From Acidimicrobiia bacterium (GTDB lineage: Bacteria; Actinomycetota; Acidimicrobiia; Acidimicrobiales; Acidimicrobilacustridaceae), in assembly GCA_020832495.1 (NCBI GenBank), contig JAFIEP010000080.1:1-38955 (forward strand): a DNA stretch of 38,955 nt, read 5' to 3'. Under the pieces are notes generated by a model. That model ran no database searches and was not told the origin of the DNA. It worked only from the letters and a program-made list of their open reading frames with translations. The translations under genes were made by a program, and so were the position numbers. Below are positions 30,400 through 38,896 of this stretch, one piece after another. Numbering within the stretch: position 1 is the first letter of the stretch; the number at the start of each line of letters is the position of its first letter.

Positions 30400-31515
30400 T
30401 CACGCGCCGCCGTACACCCGAGGCACCCGAGGACTGATGCCACACACGATCTCGTAGGCGATCGTGTCGGTCAGCGCTGCCCACTCGTCGGGACCGATCC
30501 GCTCGTCGCCCTGCGCGCCGAGCAGCACAACCTCGTCGCCGCGTTGGACCGCAGCGTCCGGTCCACAGTCGACCACGAGCTGGTCCATCGTCACCATCCC
30601 GGCGATGGGCACCCGTCGGCCACCTACGAGCGCCTTGCCGCCAACCATCCCCAGCCGGCGCGGCACCCCATCGGCGTACCCCACCGGCACGGTGGCCAAC
30701 ACCGTGTCGCACGGTGTCACGTAGCGATGGCCGTAGGACACACCTTCGCCGGCCGGGACACGCTTGACCATCGACACCTCGGACCGCAGGTGCATCGCCG
30801 GGCGGAGTGGCAGCCGGTCGGCCAGAGCCGGTGCCGGAGCGATGCCGTACACCGCGATCCCACACCGGACCAGATCCCGGCGACTCCGGGGGTGATCGAT
30901 GGCGGCTGCGGAGTTGGCTGCGTGGACGAGCGGCGGGCGCAACCCCGCACGGTCGAGGTCGTCGAGTACGGCGTCGAGCGCGTCGAGCTGACGGTCGGTG
31001 GTCGGGTTGCCCGGTTCGTCGGCCACCGCGCAGTGCGTCCAGATCGCTTCCAGCTCGAGCCACGGCGACTGGTCGACGAGCTGGGCCAGACCCACGATGT
31101 CGGTCGGCTCGGCTCCGACGCGCCGCATACCGGTGTCGACCTTCAGGTGCACTCGCCCCGCAACGCCCCGCCGGGCTGCGGCAGTTGCGAACGCCTCGAT
31201 GCTCGACCGTTGGTAGAGCCCGACGGCCACCTCGGCAGCGAGCGCCGCCGCCCAGTCCTCGTCGGTGGGCTCGGCCAACACCAACACGGGCACGTCGATA
31301 CCGGCGTCGCGCAGTTCGGCGGCCTCTGACACGAGCGCCACCGCCAGCCACCCCGCACCACCGGCGAGTGCTGCCTCGGCCACCGGAACCGCACCGTGGC
31401 CGTAACCGTTGGCCTTGACCACCGCACAGACCCCGGCGGGCGCGACGTGGTGGTGCAACAGGCCCACGTTGTGGGTGACTGCAGCGAGATCGACCTCCGC
31501 TCGCGTGGGGCGCAC
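30400..31515 (-). CDS. alr: Alanine racemase
   Basis: Product of 371 residues, the PLP enzyme that makes D-alanine for peptidoglycan. Lys34 in VCAVVKANGYGHGA binds PLP, and Tyr261 in VSYGHRYVT is the second catalytic base. VHLKVDTGMRRVG and CGIAVYGIAP are family blocks, and MVTMDQLVVD is the substrate-carboxylate region. The family starts at about RPTRAEVDLAAV, which selects the GTG at 31515, 13 bases after the upstream CBS gene; in-frame codons further upstream lie over that gene and are not coding. No strong Shine-Dalgarno is seen. It belongs to the glmM-to-alr envelope cluster. Confidence 0.96.
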   Translation of the reverse strand: MRPTRAEVDLAAVTHNVGLLHHHVAPAGVCAVVKANGYGHGAVPVAEAALAGGAGWLAVALVSEAAELRDAGIDVPVLVLAEPTDEDWAAALAAEVAVGLYQRSSIEAFATAAARRGVAGRVHLKVDTGMRRVGAEPTDIVGLAQLVDQSPWLELEAIWTHCAVADEPGNPTTDRQLDALDAVLDDLDRAGLRPPLVHAANSAAAIDHPRSRRDLVRCGIAVYGIAPAPALADRLPLRPAMHLRSEVSMVKRVPAGEGVSYGHRYVTPCDTVLATVPVGYADGVPRRLGMVGGKALVGGRRVPIAGMVTMDQLVVDCGPDAAVQRGDEVVLLGAQGDERIGPDEWAALTDTIAYEIVCGISPRVPRVYGGA

Positions 31516-31528
31516 GCGTGGCTGCCGA

Positions 31529-32074
31529 TCAGCCGTTCGTCGAGTCGGCAGCGGCGTCGCCGGCACTGGGTGCGGCGGTGGATGGTCCGTCGAGCGGGCC
31601 GTCGCCGGCGTCGACGATGGCGCGCACGACGTCCCCCCGGGCAATGAGGCCCACGAGGCGACCGTCGGCGTCCACCACCGGCAGCCGGGACACGTTGTGG
31701 GTGTGCATGGCCGTGGCCGCCGTCTCCACCGTGTCGTCGGGCCCACAGGTGATGGGATCGGGAGTCATGACCTTCCCGACCGTGGCTCCCAGCGCCTGTT
31801 CGAGGTCGCGCTCGAAACGACGGGCCTCGCCCGGCAACTCGATGGTGGCCCCCAGGATGGAGATGACGGTGGGGACGTGCAGCCGGCTCTCCTGCACGAT
31901 GAGGTCGCCAGTGGACAGCATGCCCACCACCCGGCCCTCGTCATCGGTCACCGGCCCGGCGTCGATCGCACGCTCGACCAGGCGGCGGGTGGCATCGCCG
32001 ACGTTGTCATCGGGGGAGAACGCCACCACGTCGGACGTCATGACCGAGGCAACCGGGGTGTCTCGCAGCAACAT
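31529..32074 (-). CDS. CBS-domain pair protein
   Basis: Product of 181 residues made of two CBS repeats (about 8-62, TSDVVAFSPDDNVGDATRRL to VVGMLSTGDLI; and 103-157, MTPDPITCGPDDTVETAATAM to LVGLIARGDVVRAIV), a module that binds adenine nucleotides. The linker and a Ser/Ala/Asp-rich tail (158-181) carry no other domain. It may be a stand-alone energy sensor. It lies between nnrDE and alr on the same strand, 13 bases before alr, so it may be co-transcribed with that gene; a regulatory effect on alr is not supported by the sequence. TGGAG precedes the ATG. Confidence 0.88.
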   Translation of the reverse strand: MLLRDTPVASVMTSDVVAFSPDDNVGDATRRLVERAIDAGPVTDDEGRVVGMLSTGDLIVQESRLHVPTVISILGATIELPGEARRFERDLEQALGATVGKVMTPDPITCGPDDTVETAATAMHTHNVSRLPVVDADGRLVGLIARGDVVRAIVDAGDGPLDGPSTAAPSAGDAAADSTNG

Positions 32075-32172: not shown

Positions 32173-33519
32173 TCAGGGAAGAACACGGGGCACGAGGTCG
32201 GGCAGATCGCCGGCCACGAAGCCATCGGCCCAGCCTAGAGCGGCCGCCCGTCCGTGCAGGTGCGCTGCCGCTGCCGCCGCTCGCCACGGATCGAGACCCC
32301 GGGCAACGAGCGCGGCCACCATGCCGGCCAGCACGTCCCCGGTGCCCGCCGTGGCCAGGCGGCTGTCACCAGAGGTCACCACGGCCACGGCACCGTCGGG
32401 AGCGGCCACCACCGTCGTCGGTCCCTTCAGGAGCAGCACCGCACCGAATCGTTGCGCTGCGCTGCGTGCCGCCTCGATGCGGTCCTCACCCGGTGGGGCG
32501 CCGACCAGCGCCTCGAACTCGCCATCGTGCGGTGTGAGCACCACGTGGGGCCCGAGCACGTCCTGGGGCTGCTCGCCGAGAAGTCGCAGTCCGTCGGCGT
32601 CGAGCACGACCGGACAGGTTGCGTTGCGCACCACGGTGCGCACCGCCTCGGCCGTGGACGCTGCTCGTCCGATCCCGTTGCCGAGCGCCAACGCACCGAA
32701 GCGGTCCAGGTCGGCCATGACGTCTGCGGCCCAGTCGCCGTCGGCCAAGGGGTGGCGTACCACCTCCACTGGTAACCCAGCGTCCGCTGCCAGATCGGCA
32801 CCAGGTGTGGAGCACCGCACGTAGCCGGCACCGGTGCGCTGCGCGCCGGCACAGGTGAGCGCGGCTGCGCCGGCCATCCCCGGGCTGCCGGCCACCACCC
32901 ACACGGCGCTGCGCCACTTGTGGGTCTCAGCCGGACGCCTCGGGAGCCACTGCGCCACGTCGGCGTCGGTGACCAGGTGGGTTCGTGCCCCGCTGACGTC
33001 CAGCCCGATGTCGGCCACGTGCACCGATCCGCTCAGCGCTGCGCCGTCGGCGAAGAGCAGTCCCGGCTTGACCGCCGCGAAGGTGACGGTGTGCACCGCA
33101 CGAAGAGCCCGGCTGTCGGCAGCCACCCGACCGGTGAGGCCGTCGACGGCGGAGGGAATGTCCACGGCCAGCACCGCCACGCCAGAGGGGATCTCCGGTG
33201 CGGACCACTTGCCACGGAAGCCGGTCCCGAAGGCGGCGTCGAGCACCAGATCACACTCGGGCAGCGGCGTCGGGTCGTCCGCCGCCTGCACCTGCACCCG
33301 CACCCCGCGACGCTCGAGCAACTCCCCCGCCACCCGGCCGTCGTTGCCGTTGTTGCCCTTCCCGGCGAGCACCACCACCCGTCGGCCGTAGGTCCCACCG
33401 AGCAGCTCGACCGCCTGGCGAGCCACGGCTGCCGCCGCCCGGCCGATGAGCACCTCGGTGGGTTCTGGAGCGGCGCGATCGATTGCCCCCATCTCCTCGG
33501 GCGTGACGACGGGGATCAC
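32173..33519 (-). CDS. nnrD: Bifunctional NAD(P)HX epimerase/dehydratase
   Basis: Product of 448 residues. The N-terminal half (about 1-205) is the NAXE epimerase domain, with VVVLAGKGNNGNDGRVAGEL and VLDAAFGTGFRG. The C-terminal half (about 215-448) is the ADP-dependent NAXD dehydratase of ribokinase fold, with HKWRSAVWVVAGSPGMAGAA, VVLDADGLRLL, VVLTPHDGEFEAL and SRLATAGTGDVLAGMVAAL. Together they repair hydrated NADH and NADPH. This is the YjeF/Nnr arrangement. The start is GTG at 33519, overlapping the acpS stop by 4 bases (GTGA); the upstream frame runs through acpS and is not coding. Both active-site regions look intact. Confidence 0.94.
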   Translation of the reverse strand: MIPVVTPEEMGAIDRAAPEPTEVLIGRAAAAVARQAVELLGGTYGRRVVVLAGKGNNGNDGRVAGELLERRGVRVQVQAADDPTPLPECDLVLDAAFGTGFRGKWSAPEIPSGVAVLAVDIPSAVDGLTGRVAADSRALRAVHTVTFAAVKPGLLFADGAALSGSVHVADIGLDVSGARTHLVTDADVAQWLPRRPAETHKWRSAVWVVAGSPGMAGAAALTCAGAQRTGAGYVRCSTPGADLAADAGLPVEVVRHPLADGDWAADVMADLDRFGALALGNGIGRAASTAEAVRTVVRNATCPVVLDADGLRLLGEQPQDVLGPHVVLTPHDGEFEALVGAPPGEDRIEAARSAAQRFGAVLLLKGPTTVVAAPDGAVAVVTSGDSRLATAGTGDVLAGMVAALVARGLDPWRAAAAAAHLHGRAAALGWADGFVAGDLPDLVPRVLP

Positions 33520-34013
33520 GACGGCTGTTCCCCCACCGAGGCTCCCACTCTGCCCACGCCTGGCCCCACCGCCGGGCCGGCTGGGGCGGCCAGGGCCACC
33601 ACGGTGGCCTGGGCCAGGTGGTCGGTGTGCGTGAGACTCACCAGCCAGCCGTCGACCCCCTGGGCAGCCGCCAGGGTCGCTGCACGGCCGGCGAGCGTCA
33701 GGTGCGGCCGGCCACTCGGGTCGTTGGTGACCTCGATGTCGGTGAACGCGGCGGCTCCCAGGCCCACCCCCAGGGCCTTGAGCGTGGCCTCCTTGGCCGC
33801 CCACCGAACGGCGTAGCGTTGCTCGGGCCGCCCACCTTGTTCGGCCCGCGCCCGTTCCCCATCGGTGAACACCCGCCGGGTGAAGCCAGCCGTTCGGTCG
33901 ATGGCGGCCTTGATGCGAGCCACGTCGACCAGGTCGACGCCGACCGACAGCACGGGTCGACCGATGGCCGCCACGACGCCGTGCGCCGCATCACCACCCA
34001 CCACCGTGGTCAC
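33516..34013 (-). CDS. acpS: Holo-[acyl-carrier-protein] synthase
   Basis: Product of 165 residues from the GTG at 34013, which transfers phosphopantetheine from CoA to acyl carrier protein. The motifs are VGVDLVDVARI with the Mg-binding Asp, and RWAAKEATLKALG with the Mg-binding Glu, followed by VSLTHTDHLAQATVVA. The family normally begins at about VLSVGVDLVDV, so the GTG at 33953 is a serious alternative and would give 145 residues. The upstream GTG is kept because it makes the 4-base GTGA overlap with the preceding gene seen elsewhere in this cluster. The C-terminal tail (about 147-165) is Gly/Pro/Val-rich and non-conserved. Confidence 0.93.
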   Translation of the reverse strand: MTTVVGGDAAHGVVAAIGRPVLSVGVDLVDVARIKAAIDRTAGFTRRVFTDGERARAEQGGRPEQRYAVRWAAKEATLKALGVGLGAAAFTDIEVTNDPSGRPHLTLAGRAATLAAAQGVDGWLVSLTHTDHLAQATVVALAAPAGPAVGPGVGRVGASVGEQPS

Positions 34014-37000
34014 GACGAGCGCCAGTGAGCAGCCAGGTCGGCGATGGGGGCGGTCATGAGCTCTACCACCGGCACCGACGCCAGCAGGTCGTTGCGGAAC
34101 GAGGGCTCGGTCTCCACCACAGCGTCGACCAGCGAGCTGTACCGGTCGCGGTAGCCCTCGAGCACCGAGCGCAGGACGGTGGCGTTGAGGTCGCTGGCCA
34201 ACTCGACGTGCAACAGGGTGATGCCCGTCGGCTGGTTGTCCTTGATCTCGGGCACGATGAGCACCGTGCGGCCGTCGGCCGCACCACGGGCCAACACCGG
34301 ACGTCGCTCCACGGCCACGCGGCGCTTCGTGCCTCGCAAGACCGGATTGTGCTCGGTCCGGCTGCGCAGCTCGCGTCCCAGCCCGCCTCGGTCGACCACC
34401 ACGGCGTGGGGCTCGTCGGGGCCGTCGAGGCGGCCGTCGATCCGGTAGCGCGTGTAGCCGAGCACCTCGGCCACCACCGGCTCGAGGTTGGCCAGGCTGC
34501 GCAGCGATTCGTAGGTGAGTCGGTCGCGAGCCACACCGGCGTCGAGCACCGAGCGGACCAGCGGCACCTGCAGCAGCGTCTCGTCGGAACGGGAGATCCC
34601 AACGGTGACCGTCTTGGCCTGGTGCTTGATGGCATCGACGGGACGGGTGAGTTCCTCGATGGCCCGGGTCAGTCCGTCGGTGAGGTCCTCCACCACCACA
34701 CTCGGGGTGCCCACCTTGCCGTACTCCATCTGATAGGCGTCGAGGCCGGCAACGCCCAGCGCGTAGCGCAGCAGCGAGGCCAACCGACTGGCGGTACTGG
34801 CCTCGAGGTGACCGTCGTACTCGCCGGAGCGCAGCCCGTCGAAGAAGCGAACAGCCGCTGGTTCGAGATCGGGTCGCAGCTCGGTCAACAGGTGGTCGCC
34901 GGCGTCGACCTCGTCGGCCCCCGATGCCACCACCCGCTCCACGGCCGCCCGTGCCTCACGCAACGGATGCGCCTGGGCATCGATGGCCAGTGCCGCCTCG
35001 TAACCGAAAAGGTGGCCAGCCATGGCCGAGAGCACGAACGCCAACCGGGGATGGGTGGCCGGCACCACGATGGCGTGCACCGCCGCGGTGAAACGCTCGT
35101 CGCCCTCGCTGGCGATGACGATCGGGGCCGCCTTGTGCGCCCGGTAGATGGCCACCTCCTTGGCCACGTCATCGGCGGTGGAACCCACCAGGCCCGCAGC
35201 GCACACCAAGATGAGCGGCTCCGAGGACAGGTCGATGTGCTTCTTGTCCTCGGTGGCGTCGCAGGCCATGGACTTGTAGCAGAGCTCGGAGAGCTTGATG
35301 CGCACCTCGTTGGCGGCGATGCGGTTGGGGCCGTTGCCCACCAACGCCCAGTAGCGACGGGACGGAGCGAAGCGCCTGGCGGCCTCGGCCACGCTGGGCC
35401 GCACCTCGAGCGTGCGCTCCATGAGGGTGGGGAGCTCTCGCAGCGACTGCAGCAGGTCCTGACGATCGGCGTCGTCGGCCACACCGACGGCATCGGCCAT
35501 GGCCGCCGCCAACAGGAAGCCGGCGGCGATCTGGCTGTAGAAGGCCTTGGTCGAGGCAACGCTCATCTCCACGTCGCGCCCGTCGGAGGTGTAGAGGACA
35601 CCGTCGGCCTTGTCAGTGAGGTCGGAGTTCCGCCGGTTCACGATGGCCACCACCGTGCCGCCACGAGCGCGCACCAAGTCGACCGTGCGGTTGGTGTCGG
35701 TGGTGGTCCCTGACTGGCTGATGGCCACCACCACCGTGTCGGACATGTCGTCGAGGAGTCCGAACCCGCTCAGTTCGGTTGCCGGCATGACGTCGCAGCG
35801 CAACGGGGCACCGCCGACCATGACGTCGAGTGCGGAGGCAAAGCTCTGGGCGGCGACCGCGGCCGTGCCCTGACCGATGCCGATGACCCGTCGCACCTCT
35901 CCCGAGGACAGACGCTGACGTAGTTCGGCCGGCAGCACGTCGTCGCCCAACGCCACCGTCATCGAGCCGTCGACCTCGACCAGCTTCCCGCGCAGGGTCT
36001 TGCGGAACGAGCCCGGAGCCTCGGCGATCTCCTTCAGGAGGTAGTGGGGGTTGTCGCCCCGATCGATGTCGCGGGTGGTGATCTGTGCGGTGGCCAGCTC
36101 GTCCTCGGTGACCGCCAGCGCCGAGCCGTCGTAGCTCTGGCGTTCGATGCCGTCCACCGTGCCGGCCAGTGCGCCACGTAGGCGCACGATCTGCCCGGCC
36201 GACGCCGGGTTGGTGGGGTCGGCCGGGGTCTCGCCGTCCATCCGGAGGTAACGGTCGGTCTCCTCCACCACGCCATAGGGCTCGCTGGCCACCACGAAGG
36301 TGTCCTCGGCCACACCGACGTACAGGGCCTGTCCGCTGCCCCGCAATGCGAGCAGGAGGTCGTCGGGCTCGGCGGTGGAACTCAGCGCCACCGCCACCGA
36401 CCCTTCCAGCAGGTTGGCGGTGCGCCGGAAGGCGTCCACCACCTCGACCCCGGCCCCGGCACGTCGCGAGGTCAGTGTGGGGATGACCTTGGCGTCGGTG
36501 GTGATGTCGTCGGCGATGCGAAGGCCTTCGGAGGCCTTCAGGTCGGCGAAGTTGTCCACGTCGCCGTTCAGCACCCCGACGGCATAGGGGCGATCGGTCC
36601 CTTCGGTGCCCTGGTCACCCTCGATCTCTTCGGAGTTCAGCGGATGGGCGTTGGCCTGGGAGATGATGCCGATACTGGCCCAGCGGGTGTGGGACAGCAC
36701 CACCACCCGCACGTCGGGACCCAACAGGGCTCGCCGGAGCAACTCGTCGGCTCGGACGGCGTCGCGCAGCACCCGGGTGTTGTCGCCCAACTCACCGATC
36801 TCGGCCGCCGCCTTGTAGACGAACGACACCATGCCGTCCACCACGCGCACCGAGCCCGAACCGAAGACCGGGTCGATCGAGCGAGCGATCACCTCGGCGG
36901 CCACCGACGGCGACTCGAGGTCCAGTCCGTGGTCGACGACGAGGAGGTGCAGACCAGCCGAGTCGCGCCCCCGCACCTCGAGGCGATCGAGGGCACTGAG

Positions 37001-37465
37001 CGTCTGCTGCACCGACAGGTAGGCGGCCACGCCCGCCCGCCCGACGTCGGGGCCGGCCAGATCGGCCACGGCATCGGCCGTGCGCAGACGGTCGCGGCAC
37101 AGTGACCACAGCGCGTCCTTGCACCGGACGATGGCGGCGTTCATCGCCTCGAGCGACGAGCCCGCCCCGGCCGTGCCCTCATCGAGGCTGCGCTCGATGG
37201 ACTCGACCTCGGCCAGCAGACCTCGGGCCCGCTCGGCAATCTCACTGGAGAGGGTGCGGTCAGCGAGGAGCGCCTCCAGGCCGGCCTGCCCCCGCAGCAG
37301 GCGATCGCACGACTCGACCAGCGGCGCCACCCGGCCCAGTCGGGTCAGTTCGTCGCCGGGCCCCTCCATGGCGGCCACGGCGGCGTCGAGCGGTGCCAGC
37401 ACCTCGTCGGTGGTGGGCGCGGAACGGGTGCTGGGGCGCCGGACCACGGCGACGATGCCACACAT
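34010..37465 (-). CDS. Enlarged GlmS-like glutamine amidotransferase/SIS protein
   Basis: Product of 1151 residues, nearly twice canonical GlmS (about 610), which makes glucosamine-6-phosphate from fructose-6-phosphate and glutamine. The Ntn glutaminase is recognisable: Cys2 (MCGIVAVV), RGRDSAGLHL at 165-174, LSHTRWASIG at 257-266, LNGDVDNF at 299-306 and TDAKVIPTL. A helical insertion of about 130 residues (15-150) splits it. HYLLKEIAEAPGSFRKTL (474-491) matches the GlmS linker. SIS1 has GIGQGTAAVA and ISQSGTTTDTNRT (583-595) and VASTKAFYSQ; SIS2 (about 700-800) keeps NEVRIKLSELCYK and TEDKKHIDLSS, where E739 and H743 may match the GlmS base and ring-opening His. About 290 residues follow (860-1151) of unknown fold. 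It sits next to glmM, where glmS is expected. TACACT lies 7 bases before the ATG. Confidence 0.85.
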   Translation of the reverse strand: MCGIVAVVRRPSTRSAPTTDEVLAPLDAAVAAMEGPGDELTRLGRVAPLVESCDRLLRGQAGLEALLADRTLSSEIAERARGLLAEVESIERSLDEGTAGAGSSLEAMNAAIVRCKDALWSLCRDRLRTADAVADLAGPDVGRAGVAAYLSVQQTLSALDRLEVRGRDSAGLHLLVVDHGLDLESPSVAAEVIARSIDPVFGSGSVRVVDGMVSFVYKAAAEIGELGDNTRVLRDAVRADELLRRALLGPDVRVVVLSHTRWASIGIISQANAHPLNSEEIEGDQGTEGTDRPYAVGVLNGDVDNFADLKASEGLRIADDITTDAKVIPTLTSRRAGAGVEVVDAFRRTANLLEGSVAVALSSTAEPDDLLLALRGSGQALYVGVAEDTFVVASEPYGVVEETDRYLRMDGETPADPTNPASAGQIVRLRGALAGTVDGIERQSYDGSALAVTEDELATAQITTRDIDRGDNPHYLLKEIAEAPGSFRKTLRGKLVEVDGSMTVALGDDVLPAELRQRLSSGEVRRVIGIGQGTAAVAAQSFASALDVMVGGAPLRCDVMPATELSGFGLLDDMSDTVVVAISQSGTTTDTNRTVDLVRARGGTVVAIVNRRNSDLTDKADGVLYTSDGRDVEMSVASTKAFYSQIAAGFLLAAAMADAVGVADDADRQDLLQSLRELPTLMERTLEVRPSVAEAARRFAPSRRYWALVGNGPNRIAANEVRIKLSELCYKSMACDATEDKKHIDLSSEPLILVCAAGLVGSTADDVAKEVAIYRAHKAAPIVIASEGDERFTAAVHAIVVPATHPRLAFVLSAMAGHLFGYEAALAIDAQAHPLREARAAVERVVASGADEVDAGDHLLTELRPDLEPAAVRFFDGLRSGEYDGHLEASTASRLASLLRYALGVAGLDAYQMEYGKVGTPSVVVEDLTDGLTRAIEELTRPVDAIKHQAKTVTVGISRSDETLLQVPLVRSVLDAGVARDRLTYESLRSLANLEPVVAEVLGYTRYRIDGRLDGPDEPHAVVVDRGGLGRELRSRTEHNPVLRGTKRRVAVERRPVLARGAADGRTVLIVPEIKDNQPTGITLLHVELASDLNATVLRSVLEGYRDRYSSLVDAVVETEPSFRNDLLASVPVVELMTAPIADLAAHWRSS

Positions 37466-37489: not shown

Positions 37490-38896
37490 TCAGCGGTCGG
37501 CTGCGCCGCACGCCGTGCGCACCTCGCCCACGAGCCGCTCTGCGACCCCGTGCGCTTGCTCGATGGTCGGCGCCTCGACCATGACCCGCACCAGCGGCTC
37601 GGTCCCGCTCGCCCGCAGCAACACCCGACCCACACCCTCGAGCTCGGCCTCCGCAACCGCGATCGGCCCGGCCAGGAGCGAGGCCACGTCCGCCGGACGC
37701 TCGGCCACCGCCACGTTCTGCAGCACCTGCGGCAGGCGCGTCATGGCCCCTGCGGCCAGCGTCGACATCCGCTCGCCCGAGCGGACCAGCAGGTCGGCCA
37801 GCAACGCACCGCTGAGCACGCCGTCGCCGGTGGTGGCCACCTCAGCGAAGATGATGTGCCCCGATTGTTCACCCCCGAGGGACCAACCGTTGGCGTGGAG
37901 CGCCTCGAGCACGTAGCGGTCACCCACCGCGGTCTGGTGGACGGCGATCCCGCTGCGTTCCATGGCCTGGTGGAAGCCCAGGTTGGTCATCACCGTCACG
38001 ACGACGGTGTCGTCGACCAGCAGTCCTCGCCGATGGCGGTCCAGGGCGAACAGGGCCAACAAGTGGTCACCGTCGACCACGGCGCCGGTCTCGTCCACAG
38101 CGATCACCCGGTCGGCGTCGCCGTCGAAGGCCAGGCCCAGCGCGGCGCCGGCAGCGGTCACGGCGCGGCAGAGGTCCTCGGGGTGAGTCGACCCACAGCC
38201 GGCGTTGATGTTCTGCCCGTCAGGTGCGGCGTGGATGACGCCCACCTGGGCGCCGAGCGCCTCGAACACCTCTGGCGCGACGATGCTGGCTGCCCCGTTG
38301 GCACAGTCCACCACGACCGACAGACCCTCGAGGGAACGACCCCCGAGTGCACCCACCACATGCTGGCGGTAGTCGGCCAGCAAGCCGTCCGCCCGACTGG
38401 TCGGCGGGAGCAGGAAGTCGTCCTCCGCTCCCGTCTCGGCCAGCAACTCGCCGGTGGTGGCGGCGATGCGCGCCTCGGTGGCATCGGGGAGCTTCTTGCC
38501 CCCGGCGGCGAAGAACTTGATGCCGTTGTCGGTCCACGGGTTGTGTGACGCAGAGATCACCGCTGCGGGGCAGCGCCGGGCCGCGGCAGCGTGGGCCACC
38601 GCCGGGGTGGGCGCCACCCCGAGCAGGTGCGCCGCGCACCCCTCTCGGGCGAACCCCTTGGCCAGCGCGTCGGCGATGGCGCTACCCGATGCCCGGGTGT
38701 CGCGCCCGATGACGACGTCGACACCCTCGAGCACCCGTGCGGCAGCACGGCCGAGCGCCACCACGAACTCGTCGGTGAAGACGTCCGCAGGGCCACGCAC
38801 GCCGTCCGTGCCGAAACCGGGGAGCGACGCCGGAGAAGAAGGGCTGGACACGTCCCGCACCGTAGCCGGGGACAACGCCGACATAGGGAGCCCCAT
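37490..38896 (-). CDS. glmM: Phosphoglucosamine mutase
   Basis: Product of 468 residues from the ATG at 38896, converting glucosamine-6-phosphate to glucosamine-1-phosphate for UDP-GlcNAc. The phosphoserine is S117 in VISASHNPWTDNG; the Mg loop is AFDGDADR; the sugar-specificity loop is GGEQSGHIIF; and the phosphate loop is RASGTEPLVRVMVE. The conserved region begins only at GFGTDGVRG (27-35). Start choice is open: the ATG at 38896 lies in the loop of a strong hairpin, a second ATG is at 38884 inside its stem, and the GTG at 38851 lies 7 bases after a TACGGT box, which fits a leaderless start. It leads the glmM-to-alr cluster. Confidence 0.95.
   Translation of the reverse strand: MGLPMSALSPATVRDVSSPSSPASLPGFGTDGVRGPADVFTDEFVVALGRAAARVLEGVDVVIGRDTRASGSAIADALAKGFAREGCAAHLLGVAPTPAVAHAAAARRCPAAVISASHNPWTDNGIKFFAAGGKKLPDATEARIAATTGELLAETGAEDDFLLPPTSRADGLLADYRQHVVGALGGRSLEGLSVVVDCANGAASIVAPEVFEALGAQVGVIHAAPDGQNINAGCGSTHPEDLCRAVTAAGAALGLAFDGDADRVIAVDETGAVVDGDHLLALFALDRHRRGLLVDDTVVVTVMTNLGFHQAMERSGIAVHQTAVGDRYVLEALHANGWSLGGEQSGHIIFAEVATTGDGVLSGALLADLLVRSGERMSTLAAGAMTRLPQVLQNVAVAERPADVASLLAGPIAVAEAELEGVGRVLLRASGTEPLVRVMVEAPTIEQAHGVAERLVGEVRTACGAADR
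38859..38864 (-). promoter_or_regulatory. -10 box candidate within the glmM 5' region
   Basis: On the minus strand TACGGT lies 7 bases before an in-frame GTG at 38851. If used, glmM would begin 15 codons later than the first ATG, and the hairpin upstream would be outside the transcript. Confidence 0.3.

Follow-up and report, generated by a model that had tools for sequence, protein, structure and literature searches.

The 38,955-nucleotide stretch of DNA analysed here (the window: the forward strand of contig JAFIEP010000080.1, assembly GCA_020832495.1, from an Acidimicrobiia bacterium of the phylum Actinomycetota) carries, directly downstream of glmM, a gene for a 1151-residue protein that is probably a functional, enlarged form of glutamine:fructose-6-phosphate amidotransferase (GlmS), with a catalytic tail that would be positioned by an added domain. 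GlmS is well known from textbooks and is a target for antibacterials; the solved examples have about 610-690 residues. The long protein is read as genuine and ancient, its active-site tail tied to a sensor-like domain. It appears to be an enlarged variant of the known enzyme, whose enzymatic role is well supported by inference. A nearly doubled form that replaces the normal enzyme in much of the class, and in a second phylum (by label), would mean that a whole class of these enzymes goes undescribed in the papers found. No description of a GlmS of this size was found in the portions of the open-licence PMC literature available, which is weak evidence of absence.

Conservation of the gene and of its catalytic residues

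Sequence conservation confirms that the window's open reading frame (ORF) is a real gene rather than a chance ORF, because many relatives hold full-length orthologues (54-69% identity to it) and mean column identity is 61% over 58 aligned long sequences; the 1151-residue GlmS-like ORF proposed in the original prediction is thus borne out. Counted from the MCGI start, the proteins are 1114-1183 residues long (79 distinct complete proteins among the first 112 loci).

E. coli GlmS (609 residues) was used as the reference for the limits of inserts and for residue equivalences, and identity to it is 26% over 600 aligned residues. Sixteen residues were compared (Cys1, Arg26, Arg73, Trp74, Asn98, Gly99, Asp123, Ser347, Gln348, Ser349, Thr352, Lys485, Glu488, His504, Ala602, and Lys603, in E. 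coli numbering), and all are invariant in 96/96 distinct long sequences, with the N-terminal Cys nucleophile directly following the start Met in every one. (Long loci L024 and L026, where the start is not resolvable, partial ORFs and identical copies were dropped from these counts, and the canonical loci L158 and L159, where the start was missed by the pattern, were left out.) We take Arg73, Trp74, Asn98/Gly99 and Asp123 to be the glutamine site, Asn98-Gly99 being presumably the glutaminase oxyanion motif, and Lys485 to be an isomerase residue. When 20 long proteins collected by profile search from the second phylum are added (n = 116), 14 of the 16 residues are identical in all; the two others are S583 of the long protein (Ser in 109, Thr in 7) and the catalytic Cys (111, with 5 gaps where the start is not resolved). 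The isomerase residues Lys485, Glu488, His504, and Lys603 are kept in 96/96 and 116/116 sequences. Catalytic roles of Cys1, Glu488, His504, and Lys603 in GlmS are given in the accessible part of PMC9272926.

These comparisons also bear on the motifs that had been thought to diverge. The LNGD sequence, taken earlier for an altered sugar-binding motif, aligns instead with Asn98-Gly99 of the glutaminase domain and keeps both residues. TEDKKHIDLSS does replace the usual GELKHGPLALI, but catalytic His504 is kept within it, as H743.

Architecture and predicted structure

Alignment to E. coli GlmS places insertions at residues 9-137 (129 residues), 179-204 (26), 278-290, 411-422, and 832-942 (111), and beyond the GlmS tail there is a 195-residue extension, 957-1151. 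The first of these is the helical insertion of about 130 residues that had been noticed after the catalytic Cys; in it E106 is kept in 111/116 sequences, D117 in 116/116, and W120 in 111/116. The C-terminal region had been described as lacking any recognised domain. It contains the GlmS tail (QAKTVTV), with K951 equivalent to Lys603, so that the tail, which in canonical GlmS is a free C-terminus and contributes to closing the ammonia channel, is internal in the long form.

Pfam reports GATase_6 at residues 255-395 and a single SIS domain at 525-654; both SIS domains that follow the glutaminase are recognised by structure, at Z of about 40, in agreement with the earlier claim that the glutaminase residues and both SIS domains are retained. 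The AlphaFold2 model of the full protein (58-sequence alignment) has a predicted local distance difference test score (pLDDT) of 87.8 and a predicted template modelling score (pTM) of 0.81. It aligns with human GFAT-1 (6r4i) at Z 40.3 over 599 residues and 4.7 A, and with E. coli GlmS (2j6h) at Z 38.9 over 588 residues and 4.5 A. Both alignments run from residue 2 to 955-957 and thus cover both halves of the enzyme. The N-terminal Cys glutaminase, the two SIS domains and the catalytic C-tail are common to the long form and these two proteins, as are the catalytic residues.

Apparent replacement of canonical glmS

Canonical glmS was counted as present when a protein scored above the NCBIfam cut-off of TIGR01135, with all candidates scored; as a control, the model exceeded the cut-off in 14/14 named genomes. 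Its absence is taken from these searches, because the distribution surveys scored the best 2-3 candidates per genome. The window's assembly has no glmS above the TIGR01135 cut-off, and its three other matches correspond to the glutaminase part only. No other GlmS was found in the genome, so the long protein would supply glucosamine-6-phosphate (GlcN-6-P) for UDP-N-acetylglucosamine (UDP-GlcNAc) and peptidoglycan. Since neither a canonical glmS elsewhere nor a loss of the catalytic residues checked was found and the gene occupies the usual slot, the earlier proposal that a glucosamine synthase takes the place of glmS here is well supported.

Among 61 genomes (the window's own and relatives), 52 have the long form or pieces of it, and six others have glmS above the cut-off; these are exactly the six whose matches to P0001 are all weak and of the canonical type. 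Neither form was found in the remaining three (G020, G025, and G032). Canonical glmS accompanies the long form in one of the 23 further long-form genomes of the phylum sample (G101, with 5% contamination) and in one of the 35 in the second phylum (G483), that is, in 2/110 genomes with the long form or pieces. The long form therefore appears to stand in for canonical GlmS. (In G101, with loci L147 and L148, the canonical gene sits in the glmM slot and the long gene lies elsewhere, so contamination is possible.) Because the long form scores below the cut-offs of the curated glmS models, a genome that carries it might be taken to have no GlmS.

The C-terminal extension

A model of residues 828-1151 (pLDDT 94.2, pTM 0.68) predicts a PAS/GAF-like sheet with C-terminal helices. 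Among solved structures, this fragment is matched best by 7jsr, the 180-kDa glutamate dehydrogenase (L-GDH180) of M. smegmatis. In the VIA comparison 163 residues align with 7jsr at Z 9.1 (15% identity, 4.4 A), with residues 967-1151 placed on chain 174-359, and GAF/PAS-type domains match the same sheet at Z 6.7-7.2 (VIA). Many of the rows between these are helical bundles (Z 7.1-8.7) that fall on the helical insert and are read as chance. By Foldseek the fragment matches 7jsr at E 4.8e-3, and nothing at E <= 0.001; the BFVD structures likewise held no match at E <= 0.001. In the dehydrogenases of relatives, the Pfam helical motif 1 (HM1) directly follows the stretch that aligns to the sheet of the extension. 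The predicted fold of residues 967-1151 thereby aligns with the PAS-type domain plus HM1 of a different enzyme.

Sequence profiles of the extension against L-GDH180 stay below significance. Homology to its PAS+HM1 region was not shown in two hhalign comparisons, one of 38 against 33 sequences (probability 0.5%, compared with 0.8% for an ACT-region control) and one using the whole-protein profile (0.3%, ACT control 0.2%). With 116 sequences the score was 18.9; 100 column shuffles gave a mean of 13.3, with four above 18.9 (19.2 to 23.8), and the reversed control and the ACT region scored 18.1 and 15.4. A profile of 37 sequences gave P 0.048 over 25 columns. (The 38-row alignment is a subset of the 58-row alignment; the 37-row alignment holds 19 of those rows plus 18 of the 20 second-phylum rows, L199 and L200 being left out.) When PDB sequences were searched with a hidden Markov model of the C-terminal domain, the rows returned were all weak and unrelated. 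Pfam gave no match in the C-terminal part of the window's protein, and GAF_3 was matched by 1/37 members (E 7e-4). Since the Z of 9.1 exceeds the next rows only modestly and the profiles lie within the shuffled controls, common origin with L-GDH180 is not established, and the likeness, as modelled, would be structural only.

Within the domain, G1003, Y1007, G1028, R1036, L1043, and G1045 are invariant in 116/116 sequences, across both groups, and K1047 (114), D1064 (115), and H1086 (113) are nearly so.

Proposed mechanism and alternative explanations

Catalytic activity of the long GlmS is very probable, given its conserved residues. In the mechanism envisaged, the N-terminal Cys glutaminase would hydrolyse glutamine, ammonia would pass under the Trp lid (W262, equivalent to Trp74), and the two-SIS domain, with K951, E727, and H743, would convert fructose-6-phosphate. 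The catalytic tail lies inside the chain, between the helical insert and the predicted PAS/GAF-like domain, and is tethered at either end; the most likely role of that domain and of the helical inserts would be to set the position of the tail and hence activity or coupling, the C-terminal domain being a putative sensor that acts on the tail. Regulation through this domain is a tentative proposal, perhaps close to an even chance. If the added domain does regulate, control of cell-wall precursor supply would be built into the enzyme. In the accessible parts of the sources, canonical GlmS is described as limiting the leakage of ammonia by means of a channel that it forms between Trp74 and residues of the C-tail (PMC7948480), eukaryotic GFAT as subject to feedback inhibition by UDP-GlcNAc, and bacterial GlmS as controlled post-transcriptionally by small RNAs and inhibited by its product GlcN-6-P (PMC9272926). 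A bolder version, which we consider unlikely, is that of a second ancient GlmS class, common to Actinomycetota and Planctomycetota, in which a PAS sensor of the L-GDH180 kind is joined to the tail and a nitrogen or sugar-nucleotide metabolite sets entry into amino sugars; the long GlmS would then be a bacterial counterpart, with a different architecture, of the feedback seen in eukaryotic GFAT.

Several observations weigh against an enlarged GlmS with a domain-positioned tail. The proposed regulatory role depends on a predicted fold, which is also the only support for the earlier suggestion that the enzyme is regulated, and sequence profiles link the C-terminal domain to no known sensor family. 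Tail residues 944-958 have pLDDT <50 in the full model, but the fragment model, made without the core that the tail would have to contact, puts the tail inside one long helix, 921-964 (block pLDDT 70-89), so a mobile tail is not demonstrated. In 96/96 long sequences Leu601 is replaced by Gln949 and Asn600 by His948, so the ammonia channel may differ from that of canonical GlmS; Ser303 is likewise replaced by Ala535 in 96/96, a position at which Ala is also present in 11/29 canonical sequences. Both NCBIfam glmS models score below cut-off (TIGR01135, 216 against 418.05 bits; NF001484, 236.5 against 381 bits), and at 216 bits the long GlmS is not a member of TIGR01135, a model of the 610-residue type. 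Besides its long form, genome G568 carries another GlmS-like frame, split into two pieces that score under the cut-off (151.8 and 117.6 bits). Finally, the absences of canonical glmS come from draft genomes, many of them metagenome-assembled genomes (MAGs).

The extra parts could instead be purely architectural, stabilising the dimer or the tail or holding partners such as GlmM, with no metabolite sensing, and this explanation has a substantial, if lesser than even, chance of being right. Helical inserts are common scaffolds, sequence searches find no sensor family in the window's C-terminal part, and glmM and acpS are co-located with the gene in the window's class. However, a predicted PAS/GAF-like sheet with six residues invariant in 116/116 sequences exceeds what a spacer needs, and the domains are kept in the second phylum, where 20/20 loci have no glmM match nearby.

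It is improbable that the long protein is an aminotransferase related to GlmS whose substrate is a different ketose phosphate, although the modest identity to E. coli GlmS, the motif changes around His504 and the long stem in the trees would suit such an enzyme. The checked isomerase residues are all kept, nearly every long-form genome lacks canonical glmS, and the gene lies in the same slot after glmM; moreover, GlcN-6-P is required for peptidoglycan. The related idea in the original prediction, of an enzyme with a new substrate, is not supported, given the same kept residues and the near-constant absence of canonical glmS.

A SIS-type deaminase or sugar isomerase with a non-working glutaminase is very improbable. 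The SIS half does align with enzymes of this sort, such as NagB-II (Z 26-34), which together with tagatose-6-phosphate isomerase shares the two-SIS fold, but GlmS and GFAT structures score higher and cover both halves, the glutaminase residues are invariant, and the NagB-II deaminase model NF046059 gives 52.8 bits against a cut-off of 430. SIS-domain deaminases and isomerases are not known to have a glutaminase domain. An artificial fusion of two genes, or an assembly or frame artefact, has nothing in its favour beyond the unusual length and is refuted by the many separate assemblies that carry proteins of similar length. An enlarged, functional GlmS remains the reading that we favour.

Distribution and evolution

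Presence of the long form was defined as a match of >200 bits, pieces included. By this measure it occurs in 119/296 genomes of the class to which the window belongs (in another 161 every match is weaker, and 16 give no match), in 31/396 genomes of a phylum sample, nine of them outside the class, and in 35/199 genomes of the phylum of G448 (locus L089), which is named Planctomycetota by label. Contrary to the earlier suggestion, the long form is therefore not lineage-specific. No relative was found in a scan of viral contigs, and none of the plasmid records spanned 80% of the long protein.

In trees with 27, 44, and 10 hand-chosen long sequences, the long forms make up a single clade (support 99-100), set apart from the others by a stem roughly 1.9-2.9 substitutions per site long; because of this long stem, the placement of the clade may be a long-branch effect. 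Within the clade, second-phylum sequences surround those of the window's class, a nesting that implies at least one transfer between phyla, if labels and rooting hold. An origin in situ, in which the long form and the canonical GlmS of its order mates form one clade, is neither supported nor rejected (approximately unbiased test, p = 0.17), so the long form may have arisen within the glmM-acpS slot or may have displaced an older gene there.

Two second-phylum sequences, L199 and L200, have no Met directly before the catalytic Cys (VVLSCGIAGV), and their C-terminal domain is diverged. Three MAG records titled Bifidobacterium breve (L033, L084, and L102) contain the long gene, with 53-66% identity; these titles are probably mistaken.

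Gene neighbourhood

The long glmS occupies the usual glmM-glmS-acpS slot, as canonical GlmS does. In the window, 24 bases separate the glmM stop from the long glmS start, the TGA stop of the long glmS overlaps the GTG start of acpS, and the nnr and alr genes follow (table). Where a long locus has room of at least 1.2 kb, glmM is found on the same strand no more than 1 kb upstream in 59/67 cases, and in six of the other eight it is 1.2-4.7 kb upstream. Where the room is at least 1 kb, acpS follows downstream within 500 bases in 50/58 cases, and in two of the other eight it is 3.8 kb away. Of eight canonical glmS loci examined, seven also have glmM just upstream. The 20 second-phylum loci gave no tblastn match to the window's glmM, acpS, nnr or alr in the available stretch; neighbours are mixed in six of them (a DegT aminotransferase, GH18, and others), with no consistent partner, and L089 has a nucleotide-sugar dehydrogenase among its neighbours. 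An Rfam scan of the window brought no family to threshold, and hence no glmS ribozyme was found.

Table. Features of the window, with residues of the long GlmS numbered from its start Met
Feature	Coordinates	Strand	Basis
Long GlmS gene, 1151 aa + stop	34010..37465	minus	ATG start, no internal stop; orthologues
Catalytic Cys, residue 2 (Cys1 of mature GlmS)	37460..37462	minus	C in 96/96
N-terminal helical insert, residues 9-137, in the glutaminase domain, after strand 1 and before helix 1	37055..37441	minus	
Second insert, residues 179-204	36854..36931	minus	alignment
N300-G301 (N98-G99), within LNGD	36563..36568	minus	96/96
First SIS domain, residues 525-654	35504..35893	minus	PF01380, E 2.7e-17; structure
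Second SIS domain, about residues 695-829 (K724, E727, H743)	34979..35383	minus	structure and alignment
TEDKKHIDLSS, residues 738-748, with H743 (His504)	35222..35254	minus	alignment
Helical insert between second SIS domain and catalytic tail, residues 832-942	34640..34972	minus	model and alignment
GlmS catalytic C-tail (QAKTVTV), residues 943-956, with K951 (Lys603)	34598..34639	minus	K in 96/96 and 116/116
C-terminal extension, residues 957-1151, predicted PAS/GAF-like sheet and C-terminal helices	34013..34597	minus	model
glmM, directly upstream	37490..38896	minus	TIGR01455, 473.6 bits (cut-off 447.55)
acpS, overlaps glmS stop	33516..34013	minus	TIGR00516, 79.6 bits (cut-off 59.8)
nnr-like gene (YjeF_N + Carb_kinase), true start probably further in	32173..33804	minus	domain matches
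Alanine racemase (alr), true start probably further in	30400..31746	minus	domain match

GlmU in the order of the window

A separate observation concerns GlmU, which looks cut short in the window's order. A main match of at least 160 bits is present in 58/61 genomes (for example L240, G000:C147:2179-3234), and in all 58 the match ends at or before position 362 of the 452 positions in the glmU model; the open frames L240, L242, and L243, judged by eye, have 372-405 aa. The C-terminal acetyltransferase part seems to be missing, and this applies to genomes with canonical GlmS as well, so acetylation of the amino sugar may fall to another enzyme. A separate ORF, L241 (G000:C42:14728-15150), which by eye is of the hexapeptide-repeat type, matches GlmU positions 310-441 and adjoins an ORF resembling a DegT-type aminotransferase; it might be a sugar acetyltransferase.

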